Shown here piece by piece: positions 4,229-37,251 of a stretch of DNA of 57,618 nucleotides. Made by a program: the position numbers and the translations under genes. The notes beneath the pieces were generated by a model. It was given only the letters and a program-made list of their open reading frames with translations. It did no database searches and had not been told where the DNA came from. Source of the stretch: Planctomycetota bacterium (lineage in GTDB: Bacteria; Planctomycetota; Phycisphaerae; WQYP01); contig JAKBMM010000012.1 of NCBI GenBank assembly GCA_021831565.1, positions 1 through 57,618 of the forward strand, in the 5' to 3' direction. The stretch's first letter is position 1. The number at the start of each line of letters is the position of its first letter.

Positions 4229-7204
4229 ATGGCTGTTTACCGCATAGAGGTCCACCCGCTCCATTCCTCGGACGATCCCACTGGGGCCGCCGTATTGGCG
4301 GAAATCCGTCAGTTGGGGATGGCGGAGGTGCACGCGGTTCGCACCGCCCGCGTTTTTCTCCTCCAGGCGCCACCCGCGGCGCTGGGGGAAGAACAGGTCC
4401 GCCGTATTGCTCATGAATTGCTGTGCGATCCGGTCATCGAACGGCCCGTGCTTGGCCATGAAGCGCCGGGTTCGGGCCGATTGATTGAGGTTCACCTCAA
4501 GCCCGGCGTAATGGATCCGGTGGCCGCCAGCACGGAAATGGCCATCGGCGATCTGCTGGACATGTCCGCGACGAACGGTGAACCGGCCGTGCAGGTGCGC
4601 ACGGGGCGCCGGTACGTTCTTGCCGGCCACCTGACGGCTGACGCCGCCGCATTGATCGCCCGGCGACTGCTCGCCAATGAGAGCATTGAGCAAGTATATT
4701 TTGAACCTTTGGTTCCAAACGAATTTCCACAGGGCCGGTCCCGCGAATTCCGCCGCGTGGAAGTGCCCATTCGCACACTTTCACCGGAAGAACTTCAATC
4801 TCTCTCCCGACGGGGACATTTGTTTCTCGATCTGACGGAAATGCAGACCATCCAGAACTATTTTCGTTCTCTGGATCGCGATCCAACCGATGCGGAACTC
4901 GAAACGCTCGCCCAGAGCTGGAGCGAGCACTGCGTGCATAAAACGCTCAAGGCCCGCATTGAGTTTACGCACCATCCGGCGGCCGATGGCGCCGGCGACC
5001 ACCACGAACATCATGCGCCGGGCGACACGGTGCAAATCATCGACAACCTGGTCCAATCCACTATTTTTCGCGCCACCAGCGAGCTGGCCCGGCCCTGGAC
5101 GCTTAGTGTGTTCCGGGATAATGCCGGAGTCATGGCCTTCGATGACCAATACGCCGTGTGCATGAAGGTGGAAACGCACAACCGTCCCTCCGCCATCGAA
5201 CCTTACGGAGGGGCGGCCACCGGCATCGGCGGCTGCATCCGCGATGTATTGGGAACCGGCGGAGGCGCCCGCCCCATCGCCTGCACCGATATATTCTGTT
5301 TCGCCGATCCGCAAACGCCCGGCGAGCAACTTCCCGCCGGCGTCATCCACCCCCGCCGCATTGCCCAGCGCGTGGTGGCCGGGGTACGGGATTACGGCAA
5401 CCGCATGGGCATTCCCACTGTCAATGGCGCGATCTATTTCGATCAGCGTTATATCGGAAATCCACTGGTATTCTGCGGAACTCTGGGCATTCTCCCGCGC
5501 CACCTGGCCGCCAAGGGGGCGGCCCAGCCGGGTGATCATATTATTCTCATCGGCGGTCGCACGGGGCGCGATGGCATTCACGGCGCGACATTCTCCAGCG
5601 ACGTGGTAACCGATAAGCATGGAGACGAATTCAGCCATGCGGTACAGATAGGCAACGCCATCACGCAGAAGAAAATGCTCGACGTGCTTCTCCAGGCCCG
5701 TGATTGTTCCGGTGGGCCGCTGTACCACGCCATCACCGACTGCGGCGCCGGCGGGCTTTCCAGTGCGGTGGGGGAAATGGGCGAAAAAACCGGTGCCACG
5801 GTGGAACTGGATCGTGTACCACTGAAATACCAGGGGCTTGATTACGCCGAAATCTGGATCAGCGAAGCGCAGGAGCGCATGGTGCTGGCTGTGGCGCCGC
5901 GGAATGTTGCGCCGTTGCTGGAATTGGCCGCGGCCGAAGATGTTGAAGCAACGAACATCGGCGTATTCGACGGTTCGGGTCGGTTGACTTTGCATTACCA
6001 AGGGCACGTGGTGGCCGTTCTGGACATGAATTTCATTCACGGCGGGTTGCCGCGCCCCACGCGTAAAGCCGTGTGGCAGGAGCCGGTCCTAGCCGAAGCG
6101 CGCCGCGCCGAGATTAGTTCGCCGCGCGATTACGCCGCCACCTTGACATCCTTGCTGGCCACGCCCACCATCGCCAGCAAGCATTGGATCATCCGCCAAT
6201 ACGATCATGAAGTACAGGCCGCGACGGTACTTAAGCCCCTGGTGGGACCGGACGGCGATGGTCCCGGCGATGCCGCGGTGCTCTGTCCCGTTCCCGGGAG
6301 CCGGCGCGGGTTGGCGCTGGCCATCGGATGCCAACCTCGCTTCGGCGACATTGACCCCTATCAGATGGCGCTCAACGGCATTGATGAAGCCATTCGCAAC
6401 GTTGTCTGCGTGGGAGGCGACCCGGCCCACACGGCATTGCTGGATAATTTTTGCTGGCCCAAATGCTCGGATCCGATACACCTGGGCGCATTGGTTCTCG
6501 CCTGCCAGGCGTGTTATGACGGCGCCAAAGCCTTTGGTACGCCATTTATTTCCGGAAAAGATTCCCTTTCCAATGAATTCATTGCCGAAAACGGCCGCCG
6601 AATCTGTATTCCCTACACCCTGTTGATCAGCGCACTGAGCGTTGTGCCCGATGTTTCGCGCTGTGTCACCATGGACGCCAAGCAAGCCGGCGATCACCTG
6701 CTGATCGTCGGCAATACCGCCTGGGATATGGGCGGCTCGTATTACTGGGCGTTGGAGGGCCATTTGGGGCGCTGTGTTCCAAAAGTGAATCTCGCGACGG
6801 CTCCGCAGGTACATCGCATAGTCGCCGGGCTTATTCACCAAGGGCTTGTCCGCTGCGCCCATGATCTTTCCGAAGGCGGTCTGGCGGTGGCGTTGGCGGA
6901 AATGCTTTTTGCGGGCCGCTTGGGCGCCCGGGTGGATCTGGCCGCCGTTCCCCGCGCCCAAAACGCCGACGCCGATGATGTGCTGCTGTTTTCGGAATCG
7001 CCCACGCGCTACCTGCTGGAAGTCAGCGCCGAACATTTCGACACCGTGGTCCGTTCACTGCGCGGGCTGTGTTTTGGCGTTCTGGGCCGGATCACCGAGC
7101 AACCCAATCTGGTCATCCGTTCCGCCCATGCCGGTTATTTAATGGATGAACCCGTCGAAAATTTCCGCCGTGCCTGGCGGGGGCCTCTGGATTGGTCCGT
7201 TTGA
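4229..7204 (+). CDS. purL: Phosphoribosylformylglycinamidine synthase, PurS-PurL fusion
   Basis: Fourth step of purine synthesis: ATP-dependent amination of FGAR to FGAM. The 991-residue product begins with about 170 residues that look like PurS-type alpha/beta repeats, followed by the FGAM-synthase linker and the catalytic signature WSEHCVHK at 231-238. Two AIR-synthase-like halves follow ([23 protein letters not shown] in the first, SGKDSLSN in the second). The C-terminal glutaminase domain of the long proteobacterial enzyme is absent, so a separate PurQ should supply ammonia. The ribosome site is weak. The stop codon lies within the -35 box of the candidate ribosomal-protein promoter just downstream. 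Confidence 0.93.
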
Positions 7205-34834: not shown

Positions 34835-34864
34835 TTGCAACGCGGTTTTCCGTTCGGCTATAAT
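34835..34864 (+). promoter_or_regulatory. Promoter for fusA
   Basis: TTGCAA (34835-34840, 5 of 6), an 18-base spacer and perfect TATAAT (34859-34864). Transcription would start near 34871 and yield a leader of about 270 nt before fusA. The rest of 34698-35139 holds no convincing gene; an eight-codon GTG frame at 34937-34963 is the only small open frame with a plausible ribosome site. Confidence 0.6.
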
Positions 34865-35056
34865 CATGCATTCGAGTGTTTGCTCCTTGAGCCGCCTGTG
34901 GGCCGGCCCATCGCCCCCGGGAAAGGATATGCAAAGGTGAAACTACTCATTGATATTTTCTAAGCCCATGCCCAGGCCGATGGTCGACCCAGGCAGGGGT
35001 TGAAACATCGGCGCGGTATGGCGATGTGTGTGCCAACTCCCGTGCCCGCCGGAAAC

Positions 35057-35077
35057 GCCCGCCAAGCGGGTCTTTTT
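35057..35077 (+). terminator. Terminator-like hairpin in the fusA leader
   Basis: CCCGC (35058-35062), loop CAA and GCGGG (35066-35070), plus a G-T pair outside, are followed directly by TCTTTTT. This has the form of an intrinsic terminator and lies 190 bases after the promoter and 62 bases before fusA, so it could attenuate fusA. The stem is short. Confidence 0.5.
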
Positions 35078-35139
35078 GAATAACAGAACGAAAGAACTGC
35101 TGATCCATAGATATCACGGGTGATGGATAAAGGTGAATT

Positions 35140-37251
35140 ATGCCACGCGATCTGACGAAATTACGCAACATTGGTATCGCCGCCCATATCGACGCCGGCA
35201 AGACGACCGTCTCCGAACGCATTTTATACTACACCGGCAAGACCCATAAGATCGGCGAAGTGCACGAAGGCACCGCCGTCATGGATCATTTGCAGGAAGA
35301 GCAGGAACGGGGTATCACCATCACCGCCGCCGCCACCACCTGTCCCTGGCGCATCGACGGCAAAGAGGACGGCGAAGAATTCATCATCAACCTGATTGAC
35401 ACCCCGGGCCACGTGGACTTCACCGTGGAGGTGGAGAGGTCGCTGCGGGTGCTCGACGGCGCCGTGGCCGTGTTCGATGGTCGTGAAGGGGTGGAAGCCC
35501 AATCGGAAACGGTGTGGCGCCAGGCGGCCAAGTACAAGGTGCCGCGCCTCTGTTTTATTAACAAAATGGACAAAGTCGGCGCCGACTTTGAATTTTGTGT
35601 GCGGACCATTCACGAGAGGCTGGGGGCCAATCCCGTTCCGATCCAGATTCCCATTGGGGCGGCGGAAATGTTCGCCGGCGTCATTGATCTGGTGGAAATG
35701 AAGGCCTACCAGTGGGACGAAACGAGTAAGGGCCGCGTCTGGGGTGAAATTCCAATTCCCCCCGAATGCCTGGCCAAGGCGGACCAGGCCCGGGCGTACA
35801 TGATTGAGAAGGCCGCCGAGTGCGACGACCATCTCATGGAGCACTACCTTCATGATAAACCGATCGACCGGGACCAGATTAAAGCCGCTCTGCGCAAAGG
35901 AACCATTGCCGGCCACATCAACCCCGTGCTCTGCGGCTCGGCCCTGAAATACAAGGGCGTGCAACTTCTGCTCAACGCGGTGGTGTACTACCTGCCCAAT
36001 CCGCTGGACAAGCCACCGGTGGTCGGCCACGATCCGCGCGACAAAAGCAAGCAGATCATCCGCTCCGCCGAAGGAAGCGAGCCGTTCTGCGGCATCGTGT
36101 TCAAGATTGTCAGCGATCAGCACGGCGATTTAAGCTACCTGCGGATATATTCGGGTAAACTCCAGTCCGGCGCCCGTATCCTCAACACCACGCGCGACCG
36201 TAAGGAAATCGCCTCGCGCATCTGGGAAATGCACGCCGCCGACCGCATCCAGCGCGACGACGCCGAGGCCGGCGACATCGTGGGCATTGTCGGCTTCAAA
36301 TACAGCCTCACCGGCGACACCGTGTGCGACGCCGATCATCCGATTTTGCTTGAAAAGATGGAATTTCCCGAGCCGGTCATCAGCATGTCCATTGAACCCA
36401 GGAACGCCAACGACAAGAACAAGCTCGGCGAGGCGCTGACCACCCTGCGCCGCGAGGACCCCACTTTCCGAAGCAATTTCGATTCTGAAACCGGCCAGAC
36501 GATTATTCACGGTATGGGCGAACTGCACCTGGAAATCATCGCCAACAAGCTCCGGCGGGACATGAAAGTCGACGTGCTGGTGGGCAAGCCGAAGGTGGCG
36601 TATAAGGAAACCATCACCCGGTCCGCCGAGGCGCAGGGCAAACACATCAAGCAGACCGGCGGTCGCGGCCAGTACGGCGACTGCTGGATAAGGATTGAAC
36701 CGTACCAGCCGGTGGAAGGCGACGATTCGGAGGACACACTGCTGTTCGTCAATGAGATCAAGGGCGGTGCGATTCCGAGGGAATACATTCCGTCGGTGGA
36801 GTACGGCGTGCGCCAGGCGTTCAAATCGGGTATCCTCGGCGGATTTCCGGCGCTGAACATGAAGGTCGCGCTCTTTGACGGCAGCTACCACGACGTGGAC
36901 TCCTCGCAGATCGCCTTTGAGCAGGCGGGCATTTTGGCCATGCAGGCGGCGATGAAGAAAGCCGGTCCGGTTCTGCTCGAACCAATCATGAAACTCCAGG
37001 TGACCACACCGATTGAGTTCGCCGGTCCCGTGCAGGGCGATATCAGCAGCCGGCGGGCGATGATCGAAAACACCGAAAATCGCGGCCATATCCAGGTGAT
37101 CGACGCCCGGGTTCCCCTGGCGAGCATGTTTGGTTATGCGACCATTTTGCGTTCGCTCACCCAGGGCCGCGCCAATTACACCATGGAGCCGCACAGCTAC
37201 GCCCAGACACCCAACCACGTGAAGGATGAAGTGCTCGCGGCGCTCAAATAG
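35140..37251 (+). CDS. fusA: Elongation factor G
   Basis: GTPase that drives ribosomal translocation and, with RRF, recycling. 703 residues, the full five domains. G1 AHIDAGKT at 15-22, switch [12 protein letters not shown]3 DTPGHVDF near 87-94, G4 NKMDK near 141-145, and the domain [17 protein letters not shown] segment. It stands alone: no rpsL, rpsG or tuf flank it, unlike the usual str operon. It converges on the next gene with only nine bases between. Confidence 0.97.

Follow-up and report, generated by a model that had tools for sequence, protein, structure and literature searches.

EF-G is an abundant and essential factor, and in the uncultured planctomycete family studied here its gene, fusA, sits outside the str cluster with a leader of its own. 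We analysed one such locus in contig 53 of a Phycisphaerae-like planctomycete MAG (assembly of 2.8 Mb in 86 contigs); this whole stretch of 57,618 nt is referred to below as the window. A first-pass annotation, made from the letters of the window, had pointed to a promoter, an eight-codon GTG frame and a GC hairpin with a T-run before a stand-alone fusA, and had proposed attenuation. All three elements are found in the window, the frame consisting of eight codons plus TAA, and the features of the locus are as follows.

34835-34864, + strand: promoter TTGCAA-N18-TATAAT, read from the sequence
34923-34927, + strand: AAGGA, by its spacing (9 nt 5′ of the GTG) the likely ribosome-binding site of the micro-ORF
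34937-34963, + strand: micro-ORF with GTG start, VKLLIDIF-stop (initiator presumably Met), present in 24 of 24 matches to the family model and carrying a coding signature
34964-35000, + strand: hairpin P1 (34964-34972 with 34992-35000), starting right after the stop codon, with weak covariation
34976-35012, + strand: alternative hairpin P2 (34976-34982 with 35006-35012; 34984-34990 with 34997-35003), whose inner helix P2b covaries
35010-35046, + strand: P4 (35010-35016 with 35040-35046) around P3 (35019-35022 with 35032-35035), candidate antiterminator, with covariation
35057-35078, + strand: P5, a terminator-like hairpin plus CTTTTTG, from its fold, covariation and T-rich stretch
35140-37251, + strand: fusA, elongation factor G, 703 aa, matching TIGR00484 with 949.7 bits (cut-off 659.4) and the Pfam EF-G domains

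The fusA gene begins with the ATG at 35140, and the EF-G proteins of related planctomycete MAGs are 78-98% identical to that of the window. The window genome encodes one full EF-G of the fusA type and a second full-length EF-G-like protein with 34% identity, which is above the PRK13351.1-1 cut-off. Consistent with the first-pass annotation, fusA stands alone, because both flanking genes sit on the opposite strand: the 5′ neighbour encodes a class-I glutamine amidotransferase, and the 3′ ORF has no family match in domain searches. Furthermore, contig 29, and not the fusA contig, carries rpsL and rpsG side by side (rpsL named by eye), and fusA is absent from the approximately 500 nt between rpsG and the end of that contig. 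Elsewhere in the class, four of eight fusA loci from other families are preceded by sequence that resembles the end of rpsG (by eye), and fusA therefore seems, from this sequence comparison, to have moved out of the str cluster in the window's family.

Taken by itself, the window sequence contains leader features that barely exceed chance: two promoter-like sites are present against 1.7 in shuffles, ten terminator-like sites against 4.6 (sd 2.1), and the leader fold has z = -1.58, with 14 of 200 shuffles folding equally well. The leader is accepted as real because comparison across the family settles the question. Leaders were extracted from 25 loci, 21 of which were aligned as A1 after a duplicate and the three diverged g5 leaders had been set aside, and A1 was used to build the covariance model R1, whose leader core corresponds to 34923-35060. 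Of the 28 family genomes, 23 contain a match to R1; G041 contains two, on separate contigs, which brings the number of loci to 24, and fusA lies 203-305 nt downstream of the leader core at every one of the 24. The scores of R1 are high by construction, because many of the matched loci were model input; the count, the position and the absence elsewhere are what is informative. The five family genomes without a match comprise two that are 53% and 76% complete and gave no fusA match, together with three from g5 whose leaders have diverged.

A draw of 397 genomes from the class yielded 23 R1 matches, all within the family and none among the 369 others, and a draw from the phylum yielded one match in 392, in the window's own genome, both under stricter filters with which weak matches are lost. 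With filters off and E up to 10, a search of eight class loci and three g5 loci gave weak matches to the diverged g5 leader L020 (E = 0.084 and 8.4) and to L038 (E = 3.1 and 6.5), and the other nine of the eleven loci, including two of the three diverged g5 leaders, gave no R1 match. Rfam at gathering scores left the leader unmatched and matched one tRNA elsewhere in the window; for seven loci at E up to 5, Rfam gave one tRNA and three snoRNA-model matches under their gathering scores. The promoter pattern TTGCNN-N18-TANNNT, composed post hoc once the leaders had been inspected, is present in 22 of the 24 family leaders, three diverged g5 ones among them, compared with 0.2 expected in shuffles.

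Three of the four g5 genomes (L049, L051 and L078) keep a promoter of this type, TTGCCA-18-TATACT, within the 330 nt upstream of fusA, with a diverged leader. Two of them have a similar GTG micro-ORF start, reading MRMLVTLS-stop in L051 and GTGAAAATGCTCGTAGAT in L078, where no early stop follows; the leader element in g5 may be decaying or changing. One MAG, as judged by record number, has two differing fusA leaders on two contigs (L044 and L063, at the same places as L142 and L121), reflecting either two strains binned together or a fusA duplication. At L031, in another family, a short GTGAAG frame lies approximately 200 nt before fusA and is followed by hairpins (by eye), an arrangement that is possibly parallel to the family leader; we do not claim it as a homologue, because short frames are frequent by chance.

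The micro-ORF is carried by all 24 model matches in 14 distinct versions, starting with GTG in 23 and TTG in 1 and ending with TAA in 22 and TGA in 2. The eight-residue consensus is (M)KLL(I/V)(D)Ix-stop, in which codons 2-4 (K-L-L) and codon 7 (I) are invariant, codon 5 is I or V, codon 6 is D in 23 and T in 1, and codon 8 is variable (F, P, H, V, Q, S). Synonymous changes make up 191 of 334 codon differences between versions in frame (share 0.57), compared with 82 of 369 (0.22) and 74 of 351 (0.21) in the other two frames, all being pairwise counts of non-independent events. Because of this coding signature, the micro-ORF appears to be translated, and its peptide is apparently kept for its sequence. 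The locus thus has the first part of a ribosome-mediated attenuator, a promoter and a short, putatively translated ORF 5′ of the regulated gene, and the stop codon adjoins P1 at 24 of 24 loci. Apart from Leu-Leu, the micro-ORF has no stretch of a single regulatory amino acid, and classic amino-acid control is therefore unlikely. A longer overlapping frame from ATGAAAGGTGAAAC in L041-type leaders was rejected as unconserved; in L002, L040 and L052 the corresponding ATG opens a frame that ends after three codons (by eye).

Downstream of the stop codon, P2 is built from bases of the P1 loop and of the 3′ strand of P1, which makes P1 and P2 mutually exclusive. Their energies over 19 leaders are close (-16.8 to -23.7 kcal/mol for P1 and -13.8 to -24.4 kcal/mol for P2), and in eleven leaders of ten genera only 0 to 21 of 1000 dinucleotide shuffles are as stable in both the free and the masked states. 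The 3′ end of P2 and P4 have GGC in common, and the 3′ strand of P4 and the long form of P5 have GCC in common in eight of ten genera (the exceptions being g1 and g10). The leader thus has mutually exclusive structures placed where the occupancy by a ribosome could decide between them, namely P1 versus P2 and, in eight of ten genera, P4 versus P5.

Covariation was assessed with one leader per genus by comparing native strands with strands swapped between genera in 5000 permutations, a test that ignores relatedness. Permutations as stable as the native pairing number 0 for P3, 11 for P2b, 12 for P4, 104 for the lower stem of P5 (nine genera) and 476 for P1, whose covariation is weak and which shows an A-U to G-C change in L050. 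The outer helix P2a shows no covariation in this test, its variation being too little to judge with one leader per genus. In the 19 distinct rows of A1, two-sided changes occur at 8 of the 22 pairs that make up P1, P3 and P4, compared with 3.2 in shuffles (none of 500 reaching this count, relatedness ignored) and 1 to 6 pairs in slid structures; further pair types in these three helices are not above shuffles (244 of 500). In the window's species, a G at 34996 (T in the sister species L039) makes an A.G mismatch with 34968 and weakens P1 from -21.2 to -16.8 kcal/mol. An H-type pseudoknot combining P1 with pairing of its loop GCCGATG to CATCGGC was considered first and then set aside as the leading model, because adjacent bases lengthen this helix into a long hairpin, whose inner helix P2b covaries and which excludes P1.

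At the 3′ end of the leader, P5 of the window consists of GCCCGC-CAA-GCGGGT (35057-35071) followed by CTTTTTG (35072-35078). In most other genera P5 is longer, with a 5′ arm that begins at the base corresponding to 35044, and in g1 the short hairpin and CTTTTTG take the place of the long P5 at the same position, with the usual shape of an intrinsic terminator. A hairpin with a U-rich stretch is present in nine of ten genera, and T accounts for 53 of 81 positions in the first nine bases after P5 (nine genera), compared with 26% further downstream; the U-tracts are interrupted in several genera, e.g. ATCGTGTTT. The usual P5 is lost in L055 (g10), where a long inverted repeat built from TTCTGGCTTC-like units and lacking a clear U-tract takes its place, approximately 100 nt before the fusA gene at 5001. 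The spacing from P5 to the fusA ATG varies from 29 to 139 nt, and P5 is therefore unlikely to mask the fusA ribosome-binding site or start. A promoter downstream of the hairpin had been named as evidence against attenuation, and a shuffle-scored site scan lists no promoter-like site between P5 and fusA. A second inverted repeat, ATCCAT/ATGGAT at 35103-35128, lies directly 5′ of the likely fusA ribosome-binding site and is also present in L039; it could affect translation.

The most likely reading of the leader, which on sequence evidence we hold to be moderately probable, is that of a ribosome-mediated transcription attenuator of fusA. The leader is attenuator-like across the family, and it is probably a new cis-regulatory RNA, a variant of a known attenuator type. 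This reading builds on what sequence comparison establishes, namely conservation, a coding signature, covarying helices, their overlaps and a position before fusA. The attenuation proposed at first pass thereby gains a conserved promoter type, a coding micro-ORF, exclusive hairpins and a U-rich terminal hairpin before a stand-alone EF-G gene in most of the family's genomes.

In this attenuator, RNA polymerase would initiate at the conserved promoter, and a ribosome would translate the eight-codon micro-ORF, whose stop codon adjoins P1. With a ribosome still short of the end of the frame, as expected when translation is slow or scarce, P1 would fold and block P2, leaving the 5′ strand of P4 free; P4 would then form and hold the foot of P5 until the polymerase has passed, and fusA would be made. 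A ribosome arriving at or lingering on the stop codon would instead cover the 5′ strand of P1, so that P2 would fold, P4 would lose its foot, P5 would close and transcription would stop. Termination at P5, the delay by P4, the direction of the response and a signal of translation capacity (possibly EF-G itself) are the steps that we infer. EF-G synthesis would thus fall when translation is brisk and rise when it is poor: since a ribosome on the stop codon would favour P2 and P5, and slow translation P1 and P4, the putative feedback on EF-G would have negative polarity, linking translation to EF-G supply. A conserved leader that begins with an eight-residue gene therefore suggests that the cells of this family tune EF-G supply to ribosome performance. 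Tentatively, the peptide and the P1/P2 switch may gauge the speed of EF-G-driven translocation, or EF-G-dependent recycling at the stop codon, with EF-G controlling itself through its own reaction; we regard this version as possible at best, and if true it would be a leader-peptide attenuator that senses the activity of a translation factor rather than an amino acid or a drug.

Sequence conserved beyond pairing needs (ATCGGC, the GTGT loop and GCCCGCGAGAAACGCCC in most rows) would also suit an RNA that recognises a ligand through its P2-P3-P4-P5 region, be it a small molecule, EF-G or a ribosomal protein, with binding setting termination and the micro-ORF being accessory. Control of the E. coli str operon, including the EF-G gene, by S7 (PMC10931766) and the attenuator-like leaders described before rpsL or fusA elsewhere (PMC2965389) lend this idea precedent. 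We consider it unlikely: the micro-ORF is conserved as amino acids with its stop next to P1 at every one of the 24 loci, and three leaders are no more like their own 23S rRNA, or the 5′ part of their own 16S rRNA, than shuffles are. Specifically, rRNA mimicry found no support, with 23, 28 and 4 of 60 shuffles as good for 23S (L056 being borderline) and 56, 57 and 37 of 60 as good for the 5′ part of 16S; the S7 site presumably lies in the 3′ half of 16S.

For the ribosome-mediated attenuator, switching was explored by folding leaders of eight non-g1 genera (g10 being excluded for lack of P5). When P1 is forced and the 3′ arm of P5 is not yet made, the P4 foot forms in seven of the eight. Masking the ORF plus 12 nt, which mimics a ribosome at the stop codon, removes the P4 foot in five of those seven; the foot persists under P1 masking in g8 and g11, and in g9 it never forms. 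Once P5 and 8 nt beyond it are included, P5 forms fully in all eight genera regardless of P1 in equilibrium folding, and antitermination would therefore have to be kinetic, the one role left to P4 being to slow the closing of P5. The g1 terminator is local, its hairpin lying next to P4; in the two leaders of this genus its core forms in six of six foldings that contain it, and an antiterminator competing with the terminator was therefore not found in the window's species. The antiterminator that the first-pass annotation suggested looking for in related leaders is thus supported in part: P4 shares three bases with the terminator foot in eight of ten genera, whereas in g1, the window's own genus, P4 misses the terminator. 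Because of the six foldings, the window's species is modelled as having a terminator-like hairpin but no switch by itself, with weak predicted coupling.

The independence of the g1 hairpin from P4 and the success of completed P5 at equilibrium in the eight other genera would equally fit a stability or processing element, or a small RNA derived from the 5′ UTR, in which P5 would serve to protect or end a short transcript, with constitutive read-through. Such an element would leave both the P1/P2 exclusivity over ten genera and the conserved micro-ORF unexplained, and we judge it quite improbable. A short peptide that ends at a stop codon and is conserved in its amino acids could also belong to a drug-responsive attenuator, in which an antibiotic slowing elongation or release would halt a ribosome on the leader peptide and alter fusA read-through, a very doubtful prospect given that fusA is a housekeeping gene. 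Here, moreover, a ribosome at the stop codon should favour the terminator, whereas in the analogous published system, MsrDL for msrD, the stalled ribosome prevents it (PMC10314930).

If the ribosome-mediated attenuator works as proposed, it would show how EF-G can be matched to ribosomes without an operon, it would place a translation factor under the control of translation itself, and it would add a compact RNA family with two-hairpin logic. In attenuators of the trp and his type, the position of a ribosome selects among alternative hairpins, and the family leader resembles them in this respect. It differs in having no regulatory codon run, a peptide conserved as sequence and a translation-factor gene as its target, and in the extra hairpin pair, P1 versus P2, that would set the choice.

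Our literature search found no description of the family fusA leader, which is weak evidence of absence because most subscription papers lie outside the search. Naville and Gautheret (2010, PMC2965389) describe predicted attenuators, termed rpsL-leaders, upstream of rpsL in several groups and upstream of streptococcal fusA; like the family leader, these combine a predicted premature terminator with an alternative antiterminator before EF-G or str-operon genes. In the accessible text of that paper, these leaders share no globally conserved sequence or structure, and the streptococcal variant lies between rpsG and fusA with no leader peptide named, whereas here fusA is alone; from these descriptions and Rfam, the family leader appears distinct from the published rpsL-leader forms. 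The rpsL motif of 'Candidatus Pelagibacter ubique' is likewise a structured RNA that occasionally precedes fusA, but it has a bulged P1 and a three-stem junction and is described only from Pelagibacter and marine metagenomes (PMC2704228), and it fails the terminator criteria of PMC2965389.

The nearest known mechanism, by analogy and as far as the accessible text describes it, is that of MsrDL, a six-residue leader at whose UAA the ribosome stalls, preventing termination before the translation factor msrD (PMC10314930). MsrDL is drug-induced, the stalled ribosome itself obstructs the terminator, and the accessible text names no hairpin pair like P1 and P2. The features of MsrDL with a counterpart, in part predicted, in the family leader are a very short peptide (MYLIFM in MsrDL), action at the stop codon, an intrinsic terminator and the control of a translation factor, which in MsrDL also reduces its own expression (PMC10314930).
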